Below, piece after piece: positions 8,093-62,482 of a stretch of 64,000 bases of DNA. The stretch lies in the NCBI GenBank assembly GCA_903871855.1, contig CAIQIK010000042.1, forward strand, positions 62,001 through 126,000, written 5' to 3'. The notes under the pieces are model-generated. The model worked only from the letters and a program-made list of their open reading frames with translations. It ran no database searches and was not told the DNA's origin. Within the stretch, counting starts at the first letter, position 1. Every line of letters begins with the position of its first letter. This stretch comes from an uncultured Caldisericota bacterium. Lineage in GTDB: Bacteria; Caldisericota; Caldisericia; Cryosericales; Cryosericaceae. Made by a program: the position numbers and the translations under genes.

Positions 8093-8118
8093 GTCATTCC
8101 CGCGAAAGCGGGAATCCA
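8093..8118 (+). repeat. H1 repeat (uninterrupted copy)
   Basis: A 26-bp palindromic extragenic repeat: GTCATTC followed by CCGCG, a short A-rich centre and GCGGGAATCCA. This widespread REP-like type is important here because the same sequence at 41015-41076 is split by a 36-bp unit exactly after GTCATTC. A related, weaker copy follows at about 8135-8165. Confidence 0.8.
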
Positions 8119-8193: not shown

Positions 8194-8310
8194 CCCCCGA
8201 GCCCTTTTGTCCAAGGCGAGGGGTGCTTCCCACGAGCATGTTGGTCCAATGGGAGTGGCGCTCTGCCCCCCGAGCACTTTTTTCGCATGCGAGGGGTGCT
8301 TTCGGCGAAG
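8194..8310 (+). repeat. 36-bp palindromic unit cluster A (three units)
   Basis: Three units lie head to tail. Unit 1 (about 8195-8230) pairs CCCC with GGGG and GCC with GGC. Unit 2 (about 8230-8265) pairs CCAC with GTGG and CAT with ATG. Unit 3 (8268-8303) pairs CCCC with GGGG and GCA with TGC. In all three the two stem parts are separated by GA opposite GA. Each hairpin is followed by a 6-7-nt tail of the TGCTTC type. The block fills most of the gap between the bactofilin and ftsB-like genes; no gene is seen in it. Confidence 0.85.
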
Positions 8311-10814: not shown

Positions 10815-10849
10815 TGTAACATTCTCGGGACGGTTCCAAAGTGTAACAT
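10815..10849 (-). repeat. H2 repeat (uninterrupted copy)
   Basis: Read on the minus strand this is TGTTACACTTTGGAACC followed directly by GTCCCGAGAATGTTACA. Two other copies of this repeat (12936-13010 and 41104-41246) are interrupted by 36-bp-type units exactly at the GGAACC/GTCCC junction; this copy is uninterrupted. Confidence 0.8.
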
Positions 10850-10876
10850 ACTGGCGCCCATGGGCGCCAGTATGTT
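10845..10876. terminator. Bidirectional terminator, 16-bp perfect palindrome
   Basis: AACATACTGGCGCCCA is followed directly by its exact complement. TTTT completes it in the plus direction. It lies between the convergent SLH and pepF genes and should serve both. Confidence 0.75.
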
Positions 10877-12786: not shown

Positions 12787-12917
12787 CCCCGAGCCCTTTT
12801 GTCCAAGGCCCCCGAGCACTTTCTTCCAATGCGAGGGGCGTTTCTGAGGGGTGCTTCCCACGAGCATGTTGGTGCAATGGGAGTGGCGCTCTGCCGCGTC
12901 TGCGGGAATCCAGTCCT
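12787..12917 (+). repeat. 36-bp unit cluster B1 with nested insertion
   Basis: A first unit of the GCC/GGC type begins at 12787 and breaks after GGC at 12809. A complete 36-bp unit (GCA/TGC type, 12810-12845) follows, and then the missing 3' part of the first unit (GAGGGGTGCTTC) resumes at 12846. A CCAC/GTGG unit (about 12858-12893) comes next, then the right half of an H1-like repeat ending GCGGGAATCCAG. No gene is seen between 12691 and 13099; the whole gap is promoter and repeats. Confidence 0.85.
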
Positions 12918-12935: not shown

Positions 12936-13010
12936 GAGAATGTTACAGTTTGGAACCCCCCGAGTATGTTAGTTCAATATGAGGGGTGCTTCCGTCCCGA
13001 GAATGTTACA
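12936..13010 (+). repeat. H2 repeat interrupted by one 36-bp unit
   Basis: GAGAATGTTACAGTTTGGAACC (in two pieces: 12936-12947 and its continuation to 12957), then a complete unit 12958-12993 with GTAT/ATAT inner stem, then GTCCCGAGAATGTTACA (12994-13010). Removing exactly 36 bp restores the H2 sequence found at 25129-25167, with no duplicated target bases. Confidence 0.85.
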
Positions 13011-25128: not shown

Positions 25129-25167
25129 GAGAATGTTACACTTTGGAACCGTCCCGAGAATATTACA
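25129..25167 (+). repeat. H2 repeat (uninterrupted copy)
   Basis: GAGAATGTTACACTTTGGAACC (ending at 25150), then directly GTCCCGAGAATATTACA. It is the empty-site counterpart of the interrupted copies at 12936-13010 and 41104-41246. Two direct copies of GAGAAT(G/A)TTACA flank the centre. Confidence 0.82.
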
Positions 25168-25182: not shown

Positions 25183-25293
25183 GTCATTCCCCCCGAGCAC
25201 TTTTTTCCCATGCCCCCGAGTGTGTTAGTCCAATACGAGGGGTGCTCTTGAGGGGCGCTTCTGAGGGGTGCTTCTCCGCGAGTGCGGGAATCC
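25183..25293 (+). repeat. 36-bp unit cluster C inside a split H1 repeat
   Basis: GTCATTC (25183-25189) and CCGCGAGTGCGGGAATCCA (25276-25294) are the halves of an H1 repeat. Between them lie the 5' part of a GCA/TGC unit, a complete inserted unit (GTGT/ATAC stem, tail TGCTCTT), the 3' part of the first unit (GAGGGGCGCTTCT), and one orphan 3' part (GAGGGGTGCTTCT) whose left half is missing. The 24999-25378 gap otherwise holds an H2 repeat and promoters; no gene is seen. Confidence 0.82.
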
Positions 25294-26514: not shown

Positions 26515-29500
26515 CTAGCTGAAGGAAACGAGGTCGTTCCCGGATTCGGCCGATATCTCTGGAGTCTTGAGGCTTGCTGTCTCGACGATACTGACGTCCT
26601 TGTAATTCTTCGAGATGTTCTTGTACGTCGTGAGATAGTTCTCATACCCCATCTTCTTGGCTACCAGCAGGGCTTCGCCGACAAATCCCGGCGCCTCGAG
26701 GCGCATCGCCAGGTCTCGGGCAATTGACAGCTCGATAGGAGACAGAGCAACGACAGTGAGCTTGATCACATGCCGTATCTCCTCTGGCACATTCTGCAGG
26801 TCCTTGGCCGAGACAGCCAGTTTGGAGATACGGTTGCGGTACCCGCCGCGGAAGAGCTGCGCCAGAGCGCCGGCATCGGTGACGACGCCGTCACGCAGCA
26901 GCGTGTCAAGTTCGATAGCGCCCGAGAAGATAGAGGGCTGTAGAGCCGGTCTGCTTGCTGGAACCGGTACGACTGGTGGTACAGAGGCAGTGACGCCTGC
27001 TGGTGCGCTGGCTGCAGCAACTGTTTGCTGGAACGACTCCTCATCGGCCAACAGTCGCGACAGAAGGTCCGCGCTGGGTGCTGCCCCCGGATTGCTTTCT
27101 GGTGGTTTCGCCGCTGGGCGTTCGCGGTCTGATGTGAGAGGTTCGACTTCGACAGGGACCACCTCGGGTGTTGTTACGAGTTCTGAGGTTTCCTGAGTAG
27201 CCGGCGCCATCTCTTTGGCAAGTGAAACTTCCTCATGCGTTGGAGCACCCGTCTCCTGAGTCGAAACCGGTTCTTCCATGGAAGCTGCCTGTGGTGCAAC
27301 AGGTGCCTCTGGAACAGAGATTTTTTCGGCCTGAAGTGCCTCCTGGGTTCCCAGGAATTCCTCGGTAGGCATGGGGCGCTCGAGAGGCAAGGCAGTTTCA
27401 GCACCGCTGCTTTCTAGTTCAATGGGCTGGGCTGGAGCCTCCTGCCCGATAGGTCTCAGTTCCGGTTCGGGGAAAGGTTTGAGGAGCATTTCCGAGGGAA
27501 GTTCCTGGGCAGGAGGGCCTTCCTGTGGAGGCATGAGGAGAGCTTCCGAAGGAACCTCAGCCGGCACGGCCGGCGCAATCATAGCGGCAGCGTCCGCAGC
27601 TCCATGAGGCACTGCAGCGGGCGCCGTCTCTGTGCCGGCGAAGAAGCCAAGTGGCTCCAGGGAAATCTCCGAGACCTGCGGTGACTCGAGCCGGGCATGA
27701 GATGATTCCTCGGCGATCGCTGGTTGAGCAGCGGGTTCCTGCACACGCTGTGCTTCCTGCTTCTCATGGGTTCGTGTCAGTCGATCCAGTGTCATTGTGG
27801 GCGATGGTATTGGGCCTTGTTCCACAAGACCGAACTCTATGGTGTTCTCTTTCTGTCCTGCCGTCCTGGGTGTCACCTTAGGCAGGCGCTTGCCTACGTT
27901 GCGGCGGGGACGCAGAGCGAGTAGGAGGATGATGAGGGCAAGAACGACAACAACCCAAAACATCCATACAGCTACCAGCTCGGGCGTCACCGAGAGGCCG
28001 GACACCATGCGTCCCAGAACTGGTACGACCAACGCAGCCAGGGGCAAAAACAACCGGACGGCGAGATCATTGATCGCCTGTGTCGCGGTCTGGAGCACCT
28101 TCAATGCCTTACCCGAGACGAAGAAATCACGGATGCCCACAGTGAGAGAAGCGACAAACGCCCCCGTCGCGCGAGTTGTCTTCTGAATCCATACCCATGC
28201 CGTCTGCCACCGAGCAGCAATGAAAGTGCCCGTCGCGTGAGTTGCCTTCTGAATCCATACCCATGCTGTCTGCCACCGGGAAGCAATGAAGGCACCCGTC
28301 GCGCGAGTTGCCTTCTGAATCCATGCCGACACTGCCTGCCAGGGTCCCGACGACGGTGACTCCACAGGAGTGGATGTTTGCGTCGTTTCGTCTGTATTGG
28401 TCGAGGCTACGGGACTGGAAGACGAGACCTCTGCGACACTTGCGTTGACCGAGGAGTCGGCCAGCGGTAGCGCTACAGCCAATCCCTCGCGAGCCTCTTC
28501 TCCGAGATCGAAGAGCTGAACCGGTTTTGTCGAGGTGAGCCGAATGGGAACCCCGCTGGCGTCGATACGTAGAATCTTCGCTTGAGCTGTATTCAGGGTG
28601 AAGCGCTGAGATGAAGCTCCTGTGGATAGCGTGACATCCGCTCCGTCCTGAACGCCAACAACAGCAAGGCGGCGAAAGTGACCCTGGGAGAAACCGCTGA
28701 AGAGCTTGCCACTGGTGACGACGAAGTTTAACCCAGAGCCGGTGAGGGCTGTCGATGGATATTGTTCAAGGCCGAAGTTGCCCGAGTTTCCGTCGGTGGT
28801 CAGCGTGTACGGTCCATTACTCTCGACCACGATCGGCTTCCACTCGGTCTTGCCCGCAACATACGCGTTTTGTGCAATCGTGGTTCTTGTCGTTGAAGAA
28901 CCGAGCTCTGGAAGCAAAGACGTCTGTGTGGTTCCTGCGAACGATGTTGTGACCGTGGTGGCAGGACGCCAGGACGTTATGGTCGTCTGTCCGAACGACG
29001 GACCCGCAAACCATGTCCCGACAGGATACTGTACACATGATATGTTGTCTTCCTCGACGCCCGAGGTGACACAAACGGGAGACGAGCTCCTGAGGCGATA
29101 TATTCCGGGTTCCAGCCCGTCAACGAACCTGACAGATGCAGGAGAAAGCGCGATGGTCCGCGTGCTTCCCTTGCTTGTGAGCGAAACCGAGGTAGACGAA
29201 GGCGCCGCAAGCCAGAGCTCGCCAAAGGTCCGCACCAGTAGGTCGGTACCCACTGTGCCGTAAACGTCATCGTTGGACTGCCTGAGGGCTTGCTGTTCCG
29301 AATCGGGAGCCATTGTGACAAGCCAGACACTGACGGGCTTTGCTGCATCGATGCGCACGACCTGCGGGGACTTGGCGGTGTAGGACATCGATTCATCGGG
29401 GCCGAGTGTGCGCGACAGAAGCAGTGTCCCATCGGCCTGCACGAGTCTGACCAAATTGCCGGCCTCGAATGAAGCCACCTCGAGCACCTTCTCTACGTAG

Positions 29501-40970: not shown

Positions 40971-41076
40971 CGCCTTCCCCTCTGTCATTCCCGCCCACAC
41001 GGTTGTCCTATTCTGTCATTCCCCCGAGCACTTTTTTCCCATGCGAGGGGCGCTTCTCCGCGCAGGCGGGAATCCA
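40971..41076 (+). repeat. H1 repeat copies, one interrupted by a 36-bp unit
   Basis: Two partial H1 left halves (GTCATTCCCGCC at about 40971 and 40984) precede a full H1 repeat split by a unit: GTCATTC (41015-41021), a complete 36-bp unit (41022-41057, GCA/TGC inner stem, tail CGCTTCT), then CCGCGCAGGCGGGAATCCA (41058-41076). Removing the 36 bp gives the sequence type seen intact at 8093-8118. Confidence 0.88.
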
Positions 41077-41103: not shown

Positions 41104-41246
41104 GTGTAACAGAATTGGAACCCCCCGAGTATGTTAGTTCAATACCCCCGAACATATTTTCTCAATGCCCCCGAGTATGTTAGTCCAATACGAGGGGTGC
41201 TTCTGAGGGGCGTACTGAGGGGTGCTTCTGTCCCGAGAGCGTTACG
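41104..41246 (+). repeat. H2 repeat interrupted by three nested 36-bp units
   Basis: H2 left half ends GGAACC at 41122; H2 right half GTCCCGAGAGCGTTACG begins at 41230. Between them are three left halves in a row (starting 41123, 41146 and 41169) and then three right halves (GAGGGG plus tails TGCTTCT, CGTACT, TGCTTCT). The total is 107 bp, that is 3 x 36 minus one base in the middle unit. The gap 40874-41376 holds only promoters and these repeats. Confidence 0.88.
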
Positions 41247-58849: not shown

Positions 58850-58951
58850 GATACCTTCATAGTTTTCCAGAGTGGGCGGTTACCTTCGTGGTGGCCACCC
58901 GCTTTTCTGTCTTTCCCAAGCGCCAACCTGCTGTTCCTCGCTCTTGACCTT

Positions 58952-59179
58952 TCATTTCCCCGAGCCCTTTTGTCCCTCGCATCCTTTTGTCCAAGATGCG
59001 AGGTGTTCTTCAAGGCCCCCCGAGTATGTTAGTCCAATACGAGGGGTGCTCTTGAGGGGCGTTTCTGAGGGGTGCTTCCCACGAGCCCAAAGATGTTTTT
59101 GTATCCGAGGGTGTTCTGCATGTTGGTGCAATGGGAGTGGCGCTCTGCCGCGCAGGCGGGAATCCACTTCTTGTGTCCA
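58952..59179 (+). repeat. 36-bp unit cluster E, multiply nested
   Basis: A GCC/GGC unit starts about 58958. At its loop (after GTC, 58974) a different 36-bp unit is inserted whose 9-bp stem CCTCGCATC/GATGCGAGG is fully paired. The host unit resumes with CAAGGC, then takes a second insertion (GTAT/ATAC type, from about 59018). Two right halves follow, then a CCAC/GTGG unit itself interrupted by a shortened unit (about 59087-59118), then CCGCGCAGGCGGGAATCCA of an H1 repeat. The 58850-59324 gap contains no gene. Confidence 0.85.
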
Positions 59180-59213: not shown

Positions 59214-59240
59214 ATGGAACCGTCCCAAAAGTGTTACAGT
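59214..59240 (+). repeat. H2 repeat remnant (uninterrupted centre)
   Basis: ATGGAACC directly followed by GTCCC and AAAAGTGTTACAG: the GGAACC/GTCCC junction is intact here, although the outer part is diverged. Confidence 0.6.
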
Positions 59241-60356: not shown

Positions 60357-61082
60357 ATGCCGGCGTTCGAAGCGGGTCGGTCGCTCAGGCTGGGCGAACA
60401 TGTCATGCTTGGCGGCACGCCTGCCGCACACCACATCGCAGATGTCCTCCGCGTTCGTCACGGCGAACAGATTATCCTGTTTCATGCAGGAATATTGTAT
60501 AACGCGGTTGTTGAAAACGCTTCCAGGTCCGGCCTTGCCGTCTCGGTGGAGAGCATCCGTCAGTTGCCCTTTTCCGCGCGCCCGGTCACCCTTCTGCAGG
60601 CAATCATTCGACCCGCACTGCTGGGCGACGTTGTCCACGTCTGTACTCCGCTGGGAGTGCATCGGTTCGTCCTGTATGCCGCCGAGCGCAGCCAACCATG
60701 GAATGTCGCCGGGCGGCTCGAGCGCCTGAGTCAGGTGGCCCTGTCCGCGGCCGAGCAGGCCGAAACGGGTGACGTCCCAATGATCGAGCTGGCACCAGGG
60801 CTTCAGAGTGCATTGTCATGCGTGGGCCCCGTGGGCAGCCTGATTATGATGTCTCCTCGCGCGCCCTCGACCATGATGGGACTTGCGCGCGACGGGGCAC
60901 TCGCTCTGGATGATTCCGTCGCGGTCGCAGTAGGCCCTGAGGGTGGGTTCTCGGGGCCAGAGGAAGCGCTGCTCATCGAACGAGGCGCCTTGCCCGTTCG
61001 CCTCAGCACGGGCATCCTCAGGAGCGAACTGGCCGGGTTCGCCGCCATATTGATGGTGCGGGAATTGCAGGCGAAACCATGA
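60357..61082 (+). CDS. rsmE: 16S rRNA m3U1498 methyltransferase
   Basis: The 241-residue SPOUT methyltransferase has a PUA-like N-terminus (HHIADVLRVRHGEQIILF) and the knot motifs VAVGPEGGFSGPEEALL and LSTGILRSELAGFAAI (usually LRTETA). It methylates U1498 of 16S rRNA with SAM. It starts 3 nt after hrcA and overlaps mtaB by 4 nt. Confidence 0.95.
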   Translation: MPAFEAGRSLRLGEHVMLGGTPAAHHIADVLRVRHGEQIILFHAGILYNAVVENASRSGLAVSVESIRQLPFSARPVTLLQAIIRPALLGDVVHVCTPLGVHRFVLYAAERSQPWNVAGRLERLSQVALSAAEQAETGDVPMIELAPGLQSALSCVGPVGSLIMMSPRAPSTMMGLARDGALALDDSVAVAVGPEGGFSGPEEALLIERGALPVRLSTGILRSELAGFAAILMVRELQAKP

Positions 61083-62482
61083 AGGTGTTCATCTACACAC
61101 TTGGCTGCAAGGTCAACGAGGTCGACTCCGAGCTGTATGCACAGGAAATGCGTTTGCTGGGTGCCGAAACGACCACAGCGCTGACTGAAGCCGACGCCGT
61201 CATCGTGAACTCGTGCAGTGTCACGAACCGGGCCCAGGCTCAGAGCCTGCAGTTTGCGCGTCGTGCCCTGCGCGAACGGCCAGGGGCGCCCGTGTATCTC
61301 ACCGGATGCGGAGCAACACTGCTGAACCTGACGCGTACGGAAGCTCCTGCCGGTGTCGCCGTCGTTGCCATGCGTGATCGAGTGGAAGTGGCGAGGCTTG
61401 TCGTCCACTCAGGTGATGCAGCACAGGTCACAGCGCGATGGGTCGATGGGCGCATCCAGAGAGCGGGGCCCCGCAACCGTGTGGACGTGCGCGTGCAGGA
61501 GGGGTGCGATAACATGTGCACCTATTGCGTCGTGCCGTTTGTGCGTGGCTCGCGCCTTGAATCCAAGCCCGCCCTTGTGGCGGTGGACGAAGTCATGGGG
61601 CTTGCGGCGGCAGGTGTCAAGGAAGTCGTGCTGACTGGGACAGAGATAGGCAAGTACGGAGAGGCACCACTCAGAAGCACCCCTCGTATTCGAAGAATAT
61701 ACTCGGGAAGTACGCCCTTCGTATTGGACCAACATGCTCAGGGGGCATTGGAGGAACATGCTCGTGAGGAAGCGCCGAACAGACTACCTGCCCTGCTGGA
61801 CAGCATGCTGGGGGCGCTTGAGTCTGCAGGACTTCCGACGCGTGTTCGCATCAGCTCGCTCAATCCGGACGCGATCACCGAAGCGCTGGTCGGTCAGTTT
61901 GCAAACCATGTCGCGCTGTGCCCGCAGCTACATCTTCCCCTGCAGAGCGGGAGTGACGCAGTCCTGAGGCGTATGCGTCGGCCATATACATCGAAGGACC
62001 TACTCGACAGTGTGCAACGCCTGCGGGTCGTCGACCCGGCGTTCACCCTGACGACGGACGTCATCGTCGGGTACCCCGGTGAGACCGAGGAGGACCTGCA
62101 GGCTACCTTGGACGTAGTCCGGCTTGCGGCGTTCGCCAAGGTCCACGCATTCCCCTATTCAGCCCGTCCGTTCACCCCTGCGACACGTGAAGAGAACCAG
62201 GTCCCGCCGGGAGTCGCAAAGGAACGACTCCACCGCGTGCTCGAGCTCGCGGAGCAAACGGGTGTGGCATTTGCTCGCCGGTTTATCGGTCGGGACGTAA
62301 CGATCGTATCCGAGAAGTCCTTTCCCGGAGAGGTTGAAGGGTACTCAGAGTACTATCTCTGGACAGAGGGACGGATGCGTGGAAACAAAGTGCTCGAACG
62401 TGACAGCTTTGTCGTCGTTCACGTTGAGGGTTGTCACTGGGATGGTGACCGGGTCGTCCTTTCCGGGGGCGTAGCTACATGA
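61079..62482 (+). CDS. mtaB: tRNA t6A37 methylthiotransferase with in-frame repeat insertion
   Basis: The radical SAM methylthiotransferase of the MiaB/MtaB family has an N-terminal 4Fe-4S domain (TLGCKVNEVDSE, NSCSVTNRAQ, TGCGA), the radical SAM motif CDNMCTYC (C143, C147, C150) with VVPFVRG, and a C-terminal TRAM domain. MtaB makes ms2t6A at A37 of ANN-decoding tRNAs. It is 467 residues; residues 195-230 are encoded by 108 bp of nested palindromic repeat (61660-61767). Removing them joins TGTEIGKYG to EAPNRLPALLDSM and leaves 431 residues, the usual length. The site is a surface-like loop before the second half of the barrel. Confidence 0.93.
   Translation: MKVFIYTLGCKVNEVDSELYAQEMRLLGAETTTALTEADAVIVNSCSVTNRAQAQSLQFARRALRERPGAPVYLTGCGATLLNLTRTEAPAGVAVVAMRDRVEVARLVVHSGDAAQVTARWVDGRIQRAGPRNRVDVRVQEGCDNMCTYCVVPFVRGSRLESKPALVAVDEVMGLAAAGVKEVVLTGTEIGKYGEAPLRSTPRIRRIYSGSTPFVLDQHAQGALEEHAREEAPNRLPALLDSMLGALESAGLPTRVRISSLNPDAITEALVGQFANHVALCPQLHLPLQSGSDAVLRRMRRPYTSKDLLDSVQRLRVVDPAFTLTTDVIVGYPGETEEDLQATLDVVRLAAFAKVHAFPYSARPFTPATREENQVPPGVAKERLHRVLELAEQTGVAFARRFIGRDVTIVSEKSFPGEVEGYSEYYLWTEGRMRGNKVLERDSFVVVHVEGCHWDGDRVVLSGGVAT
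61660..61767 (-). repeat. Three nested 36-bp units inside mtaB
   Basis: In minus orientation. The outer unit is split: 61660-61672 (tail plus GTGG and GA) and 61744-61767 (TCAC, GA, GCAT, loop, ATGC). Inside are a GTAT/ATAC unit of 35 bp (61673-61707) and a CCCT/AGGG unit of 36 bp (61708-61743). Total length is exactly 108 bp, keeping the mtaB frame; a one-base gain (61744) balances a one-base loss in the inner unit. Confidence 0.88.

Follow-up and report, generated by a model that had tools for sequence, protein, structure and literature searches.

The REP-associated tyrosine transposase (RAYT) of Escherichia coli, TnpAREP, works in a strand-specific way on REPs whose stem must contain a mismatch bulge of unpaired bases, and its cut falls at a CT on the 5' or the 3' side of the hairpin (PMC8266576). 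Another class of small palindromes, the CGTC REPs, has CGTC at one end, a stem of 8-9 bp, a loop of 4-5 nt and a CCA tail. No dedicated or linked transposase was found for these repeats, and a broad range of transposases was proposed to mobilise them (PMC3733652). They were surveyed in five phyla, Caldisericota not among them (Di Nocera 2013, PMC3733652). Ideas on how REP-type hairpins move have so far come mainly by inference from copy numbers, from rare reads of excision and from cutting in vitro. Here we describe U36, a 36-nt repeat for which six orthologous loci, including two genes with stepwise series of insertions, give the unit length, the junction, the orientation and the lack of a target duplication base by base.

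U36 was studied in a stretch of 64,000 nucleotides (the window) from the 1.84 Mb draft genome of a permafrost bacterium of the genus Candidatus Cryosericum. The unit reads CCCC-GA-GYAY-N9-RTRC-GA-GGGG-YGCTTCT and consists of a hairpin plus a tail. With R1, a covariance model of U36 made from 31 variants, the window gave ten strong copies (Table 1); eight are on the plus strand, and the other two, on the minus strand, fall within the gene at 61079-62482. An Rfam search of the window gave tRNA as its sole match. Many of the copies interrupt two other palindromic repeats, H1 and H2, or other copies of U36.

Table 1. Copies of U36 and its target repeats in the window
Feature	Positions	Strand	Basis
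U36 in H2 (the finding under study)	12958..12993	+	R1 model 48.9 bits, sequence
H2 split by a 36-bp U36 (...GGAACC / unit / GTCCC...)	12936..13010	+	comparison with intact H2 at 25129-25167
Three nested U36 (36+35+36 bp) in H2	41123..41229	+	sequence, R1 model
U36 in H1, after GTCATTC	41022..41057	+	R1 58.5 bits, sequence
U36	8195..8230	+	R1 56.0 bits
U36	8268..8303	+	R1 46.5 bits
U36 nested in a second U36 (left half 12787-12809)	12810..12845	+	R1 58.7 bits
U36 nested in a second U36 (left half 25191-25213), within H1	25214..25249	+	R1 51.4 bits
U36 in a multiply nested cluster	59018..59053	+	R1 55.6 bits
Divergent U36, outer stem CCAC/GTGG (compensatory change)	12858..12893	+	R1 19.7 bits
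Two adjacent U36 within an older diverged unit, inside the coding sequence of mtaB	61673..61743	-	R1 38.3 and 33.4 bits
mtaB-like tRNA methylthiotransferase gene with 108 bp of in-frame units	61079..62482	+	TIGR00089 and TIGR01579 matches
Intact H1, a CGTC-type REP (GTCATTCCCGCGAAAGCGGGAATCCA)	8093..8118	+	sequence; class per PMC3733652
Intact H2; H2 also flanks a RAYT gene of the same genome	25129..25167	+	sequence
Intact H2	10815..10849	-	sequence
Intact, diverged H2	59214..59240	+	sequence

An earlier note on this DNA had compared intact and filled copies of H1 and H2 in the window, with one junction shared by the H2 copies that carry 36 bp and 107 bp. All of its coordinates for the two repeats proved correct, and the 107 bp, which it took for three nested units, did resolve into three. 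The left halves of the two outer units lie at 41123-41145 and 41146-41168, the inner unit at 41169-41204 and the right halves at 41205-41216 and 41217-41229; through loss of one base, the middle unit measures 35 bp. At further loci of the same genome, the H1 and H2 palindromes were likewise restored on deleting exactly 36 bp. Some other features of the window were also observed. In the cluster at 25191-25275, right halves (GAGGGG..TTCT) outnumber left halves by one; a left half was apparently lost there, so it seems that clusters also decay through deletion. Nested in U36 after TTTTGTC, at 58950-59053 and at loci L008, L012 and L017, is another hairpin of roughly 36 nt whose stem is perfect (CCTCGCATCCTTTTGTCCAAGATGCGAGGTGTTCTT); it represents a related subfamily. 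A perfect 32-bp palindrome, AACATACTGGCGCCCATGGGCGCCAGTATGTT, adjoins an intact H2 at 10845-10876, and a 66-bp tandem repeat is present three times inside a long coding region at 28146-28343.

The earlier comparison was one of repeat copies; orthologous loci are the proper test of insertion, and they confirmed that it is clean. Seven measured genomes, the divergent G006 and G004 among them, had 28 bp between the conserved anchors in mtaB; three others had 64 and two had 136. The gains of 36 and 108 bp correspond to one and three units and keep the reading frame, and the empty state is found in the most divergent genomes. A lipoprotein gene gave distances of 22, 58, 94 and 130 bp in four genomes, that is, zero, one, two and three copies of U36. 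Where a DUF58-like gene (identified by eye) begins, the distance was 17 in four genomes versus 53 in three; it was 177 versus 213 at a tRNA flank and 19 versus 55 at an intergenic site. The sixth site, at the beginning of an exonuclease-like gene (likewise identified by eye), measured 35 versus 70 and 106, one unit there being 35. No target duplication was detected at any of the six sites; at the tRNA flank, one base next to the junction differs from the empty form, which is indistinguishable from a later substitution. The window's own clusters were absent as a whole or rearranged in relatives, and single units were not resolved in them. U36 is thus almost certainly mobile and inserts cleanly as a discrete 36-nt unit, with target bases neither duplicated nor deleted, into the 5' arm of H1, into H2, into other copies of U36 and, in frame, into genes.

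The base preceding the unit was C in 59 of 61 copies, and this is the sole constant target base. H1, a main target, matches the dRS3-like REPs of the CGTC type and is found at many loci besides the one in the window. All 24 sampled insertions into H1 were in the GTC[A/G]TTC arm and none was in the mirrored GGATTC arm, with ATTCCCGC common to both arms; the sample is biased toward loci that carry a unit, but not for arm or orientation, and the one row assigned to the other class was not an H1. Two classes of H1 junction were seen. The first is GTCATTC/...TTCT/CCGCG, and the second, with about half of the H1 insertions, is GTCATTCCC followed by a unit ending in TTTC or TCTC and then GGCG, which leaves H1 one base longer than its canonical form. 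The insertion points are GGAACC/GTCCC in H2 and C/GAGGGG in U36 itself, at the base of the 3' arm and beside its own GA mismatch. The orientation of U36 is fixed relative to all three targets. No clear replication-strand bias was found when its orientation was compared with GC skew in 20-kb stretches, a simple test of low power. The earlier note's claim that no bases are duplicated holds at the six orthologous sites; the second class of H1 junctions refines its account of the insertion point. Its length of exactly 36 bp applies to most orthologous sites; one site gains 35, and runs of C at the left junction make the exact insertion base ambiguous by 1-2 nt.

The strand as written forms a stem of CCCC, the GA.GA mismatch and G-Y-A-Y, a 9-nt loop, and the returning arm R-T-R-C and GGGG, followed by the tail YGCTTCT. 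Stem pairs 8-22 and 9-21 covary, with a score that was reached by none of 500 shuffles. Pair 8-22 swaps among C-G, T-A and G-C, and slid and shuffled controls were lower; the larger alignment favours the structure, since it had been fitted to the model. The internal GA/GA mismatch is kept in 49 of 51 copies. Plain folding energies were weak, so the case for the hairpin stands on covariation and not on stability. The CGAG/CGAG tandem G.A mismatch is a stable DNA motif, and the opposite strand would have C.T mismatches instead. Judging from structure, mismatch and orientation, one strand would be the functional one, with the sequence CCCC-[GA.GA]-GYAY-loop-RTRC-GGGG and a 3' tail ending in CT. 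We consider it quite likely that the active form of U36 is a single-strand hairpin.

The R1 model matched 66 times in the genome that contains the window and between 0 and 70 times in each of the 14 other genomes of the genus; 13 of the 15 genomes had matches. A sequence pattern of U36 occurred 27 times in the same genome and its reversed control not once, which together with the 66 model matches indicates that U36 is not a product of chance. A strict pattern was absent from 39 genomes of the phylum outside the genus. In a scan of about 85,000 species genomes, pattern matches were confined to Cryosericum and to records labelled Caldiserica. Viral contigs had no U36. In C. odellii, two identical copies of U36 in H1 enclose an AbiE-like toxin-antitoxin pair (identified by eye) and a neighbour (L092, 5154-7132). 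At L088 1510-1620, the ATPase domain of a histidine kinase apparently contains about three in-frame units of the U36 type.

The earlier note had named a Y1-type enzyme acting in trans as the leading candidate and had proposed a search for a Y1 HUH transposase without its own mobile IS, especially one flanked by these units; it held that finding no Y1 gene anywhere would speak against the idea. Y1 genes are present in 13 of the 15 genomes, and the window's own genome has three, with the HUH and Tyr motifs. The best match of all three is the NCBIfam model of REP-associated tyrosine transposases, NF047646; one scores above its curated cut-off and two just below. The one above the cut-off has the target repeat H2 on either side. 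This RAYT gene (L001, 1329-2320, on contig C20) and its relatives in five other genomes, at L062, L065, L067, L068 and L071, have H2-type repeats on both sides in six of six cases, so H2 looks like its cognate repeat and the genome hosts a repeat/RAYT pair. The two probably represent a REPtron-like pair in Caldisericota, with a repeat that lacks an obvious GTAG foot. Across the genus, most RAYT groups are flanked by repeats of their own; those beside groups B to E, as read by eye, differ from H2. In L002 and seven relatives, a RAYT-like gene is fixed beside uvrB, with repeats of the form GTACCAGGTAC...TTCACAATT nearby on both sides in some; this gene looks vertically inherited. At one locus in three genomes (L077 898-1863, L079 901-1830 and L081 904-1860), a Y1-like protein has HYS or SYS in place of HUH and His in place of Tyr, and is probably catalytically dead.

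None of the Y1 genes is bracketed by U36. Among 27 loci examined across the genus, no Y1 gene had U36 on both sides, although a few had a single neighbouring unit at a distance of up to 1.5 kb. U36 copy number did not track any Y1 group across the genomes. G006 (97% complete, groups A and B) had four matches and G011 (83% complete, groups B and F) had six, yet G001, in which group B was the only one detected, had 66. Together, these data support the earlier note's idea in part, making a Y1 enzyme acting in trans plausible but assigning it to no group. No autonomous element with split U36 halves as its ends was found in the sampled sequence. The genes between closely spaced copies of U36 included the AbiE-like pair, a histidine kinase and others, and no recombinase was recognised among them by eye. 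A search for IS91-type Y2 transposases gave no match, and its control was likewise silent. Because Y1 genes are present, a Y1 enzyme in trans remains the leading, unproven candidate, in agreement with the hairpin, its mismatch and its orientation.

We favour the reading, at a probability of roughly 0.6, that U36 is an orphan, non-autonomous, genus-specific REP-like element of one hairpin that is mobilised as single-stranded DNA by a RAYT-type Y1 transposase in trans. A transposase of this HUH type, encoded elsewhere in the genome, would recognise the mismatched hairpin, cut at the CT end of U36 and after the target C, and then rejoin the strand; replication would afterwards fix the new copy. 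The GA/GA mismatch and the CT end agree with the features of TnpAREP substrates in E. coli, but the missing GTAG foot does not. Another possible explanation is that U36 and the CGTC REPs (H1) are both moved by a non-Y1 recombinase, perhaps one unlinked to the repeats. This would fit with the facts that no Y1 gene of the genus is flanked by U36 or by H1, that no transposase has been linked to CGTC REPs in the literature either (PMC3733652), and that U36 has no GTAG foot. However, we think it unlikely, if still worth serious thought, since no candidate is known, Y1 genes are widespread in the genus, and clean insertion, a strand-specific mismatched hairpin and a CT end are hallmarks of Y1 substrates. 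Tentatively, and with slightly more doubt, U36 could be a minimal single-hairpin transposable element without a guide tetranucleotide. Its mechanism would then be an undescribed one (a RAYT acting on foreign hairpins via the GA mismatch, or another enzyme) that also moves the orphan CGTC REPs present in various phyla.

Copying through RNA, in which the hairpin is transcribed, reverse-transcribed and inserted, has been suggested for the GC clusters of yeast mitochondria (PMC4478555). A covarying stem would fit an RNA hairpin too, and the growth in copy number is that of a copy-and-paste element. Yet this is improbable for U36, as there is neither a priming signature nor a target duplication, the orientation is the same relative to H1, H2 and U36 targets, and the tandem G.A mismatch suits DNA as well as RNA. 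It is slightly less probable still that U36 belongs to the MITEs and owes its movement to a DDE transposase that makes a short target duplication. Repeats of such a short, palindromic kind are often MITEs, and the C runs at the left junction could mask a duplication of 1-2 bp. A duplicated base would follow the target, however, and both ends of U36 are conserved whether the target is H1, H2, U36 or unique DNA. In addition, CC is not repeated at the H2 junction, the usual terminal inverted repeats are absent, the 3' tail lies outside the stem, and the orthologous sites contradict a duplication. Finally, repeats break assemblies and most of the genomes are fragmented drafts, so collapsed or chimeric contigs, slippage or recombination among repeats could mimic insertion. 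The likelihood of such an artefact is close to nil, given that independent assemblies, some of them strain genomes of named species, show the same filled and empty states within coding genes whose frame is kept; the six orthologous sites refute it.

U36 works like the REPs and REPINs of RAYTs (TnpAREP). It shares with them a short hairpin with a conserved internal mismatch, an apparent strand specificity, a high copy number, a CT end and in-frame copies in genes, and its genome also has a RAYT with repeats of its own. The REPs have a GTAG or GTGG foot, whereas GT[A/G]G is missing from the hairpin foot of U36, where the preceding base is the target C. U36 also differs from REPs and REPINs in being a single hairpin and not a doublet, in bracketing no RAYT gene, and in its many nested copies and clear orthologous empty sites. 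Like the IS200/IS605 elements IS608 and ISDra2, it inserts directionally by means of a hairpin and without target duplication, but it has no gene, one hairpin in place of two ends, and only a constant C in place of a fixed target word of 4-5 nt. The RPE and WPE repeats of Rickettsia and Wolbachia are also small palindromic inserts, those of Rickettsia lying in protein-coding genes with the frame kept; U36 differs from them in its length of exactly 12 codons and in the stepwise series of zero to three units in one gene. RPE-1 and WPE are longer than U36. The small dispersed repeats of cyanobacteria described by Elhai et al. in 2008 (cited in PMC3116915) are reportedly mobile repeats of very small size for which no enzyme is known, and are like U36 by description.

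The CGTC REPs, such as dRS3 of Neisseria and RPE-4 and RPE-6 of Rickettsia, resemble U36 as small palindromes with a short unpaired 3' tail, in genic and intergenic positions and without a linked transposase (for U36, Y1 genes were checked). The sequence of U36 is different, its stem carries a mismatch, and its loop and tail measure 9 nt and 7 nt. It does not fit the sequence description of CGTC REPs, which H1 does, and it inserts into them. The GC clusters of yeast mitochondria are hairpins of similar size that are highly mobile, merge with one another and have stems more conserved than their loops (PMC4478555). They are flanked by direct repeats of AG or ACT, like target duplications, in contrast to U36 (PMC4478555). 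U36 repeatedly enters the CGTC REPs in a genus with several RAYTs, each with different repeats at its flanks. U36 belongs among the small hairpin mobile repeats, with REP-like behaviour and an unproven identity as a REP. Since it lacks defining features of both GTAG REPs and CGTC REPs and shows no duplication of the MITE type, we place it as a separate variant of these repeats.
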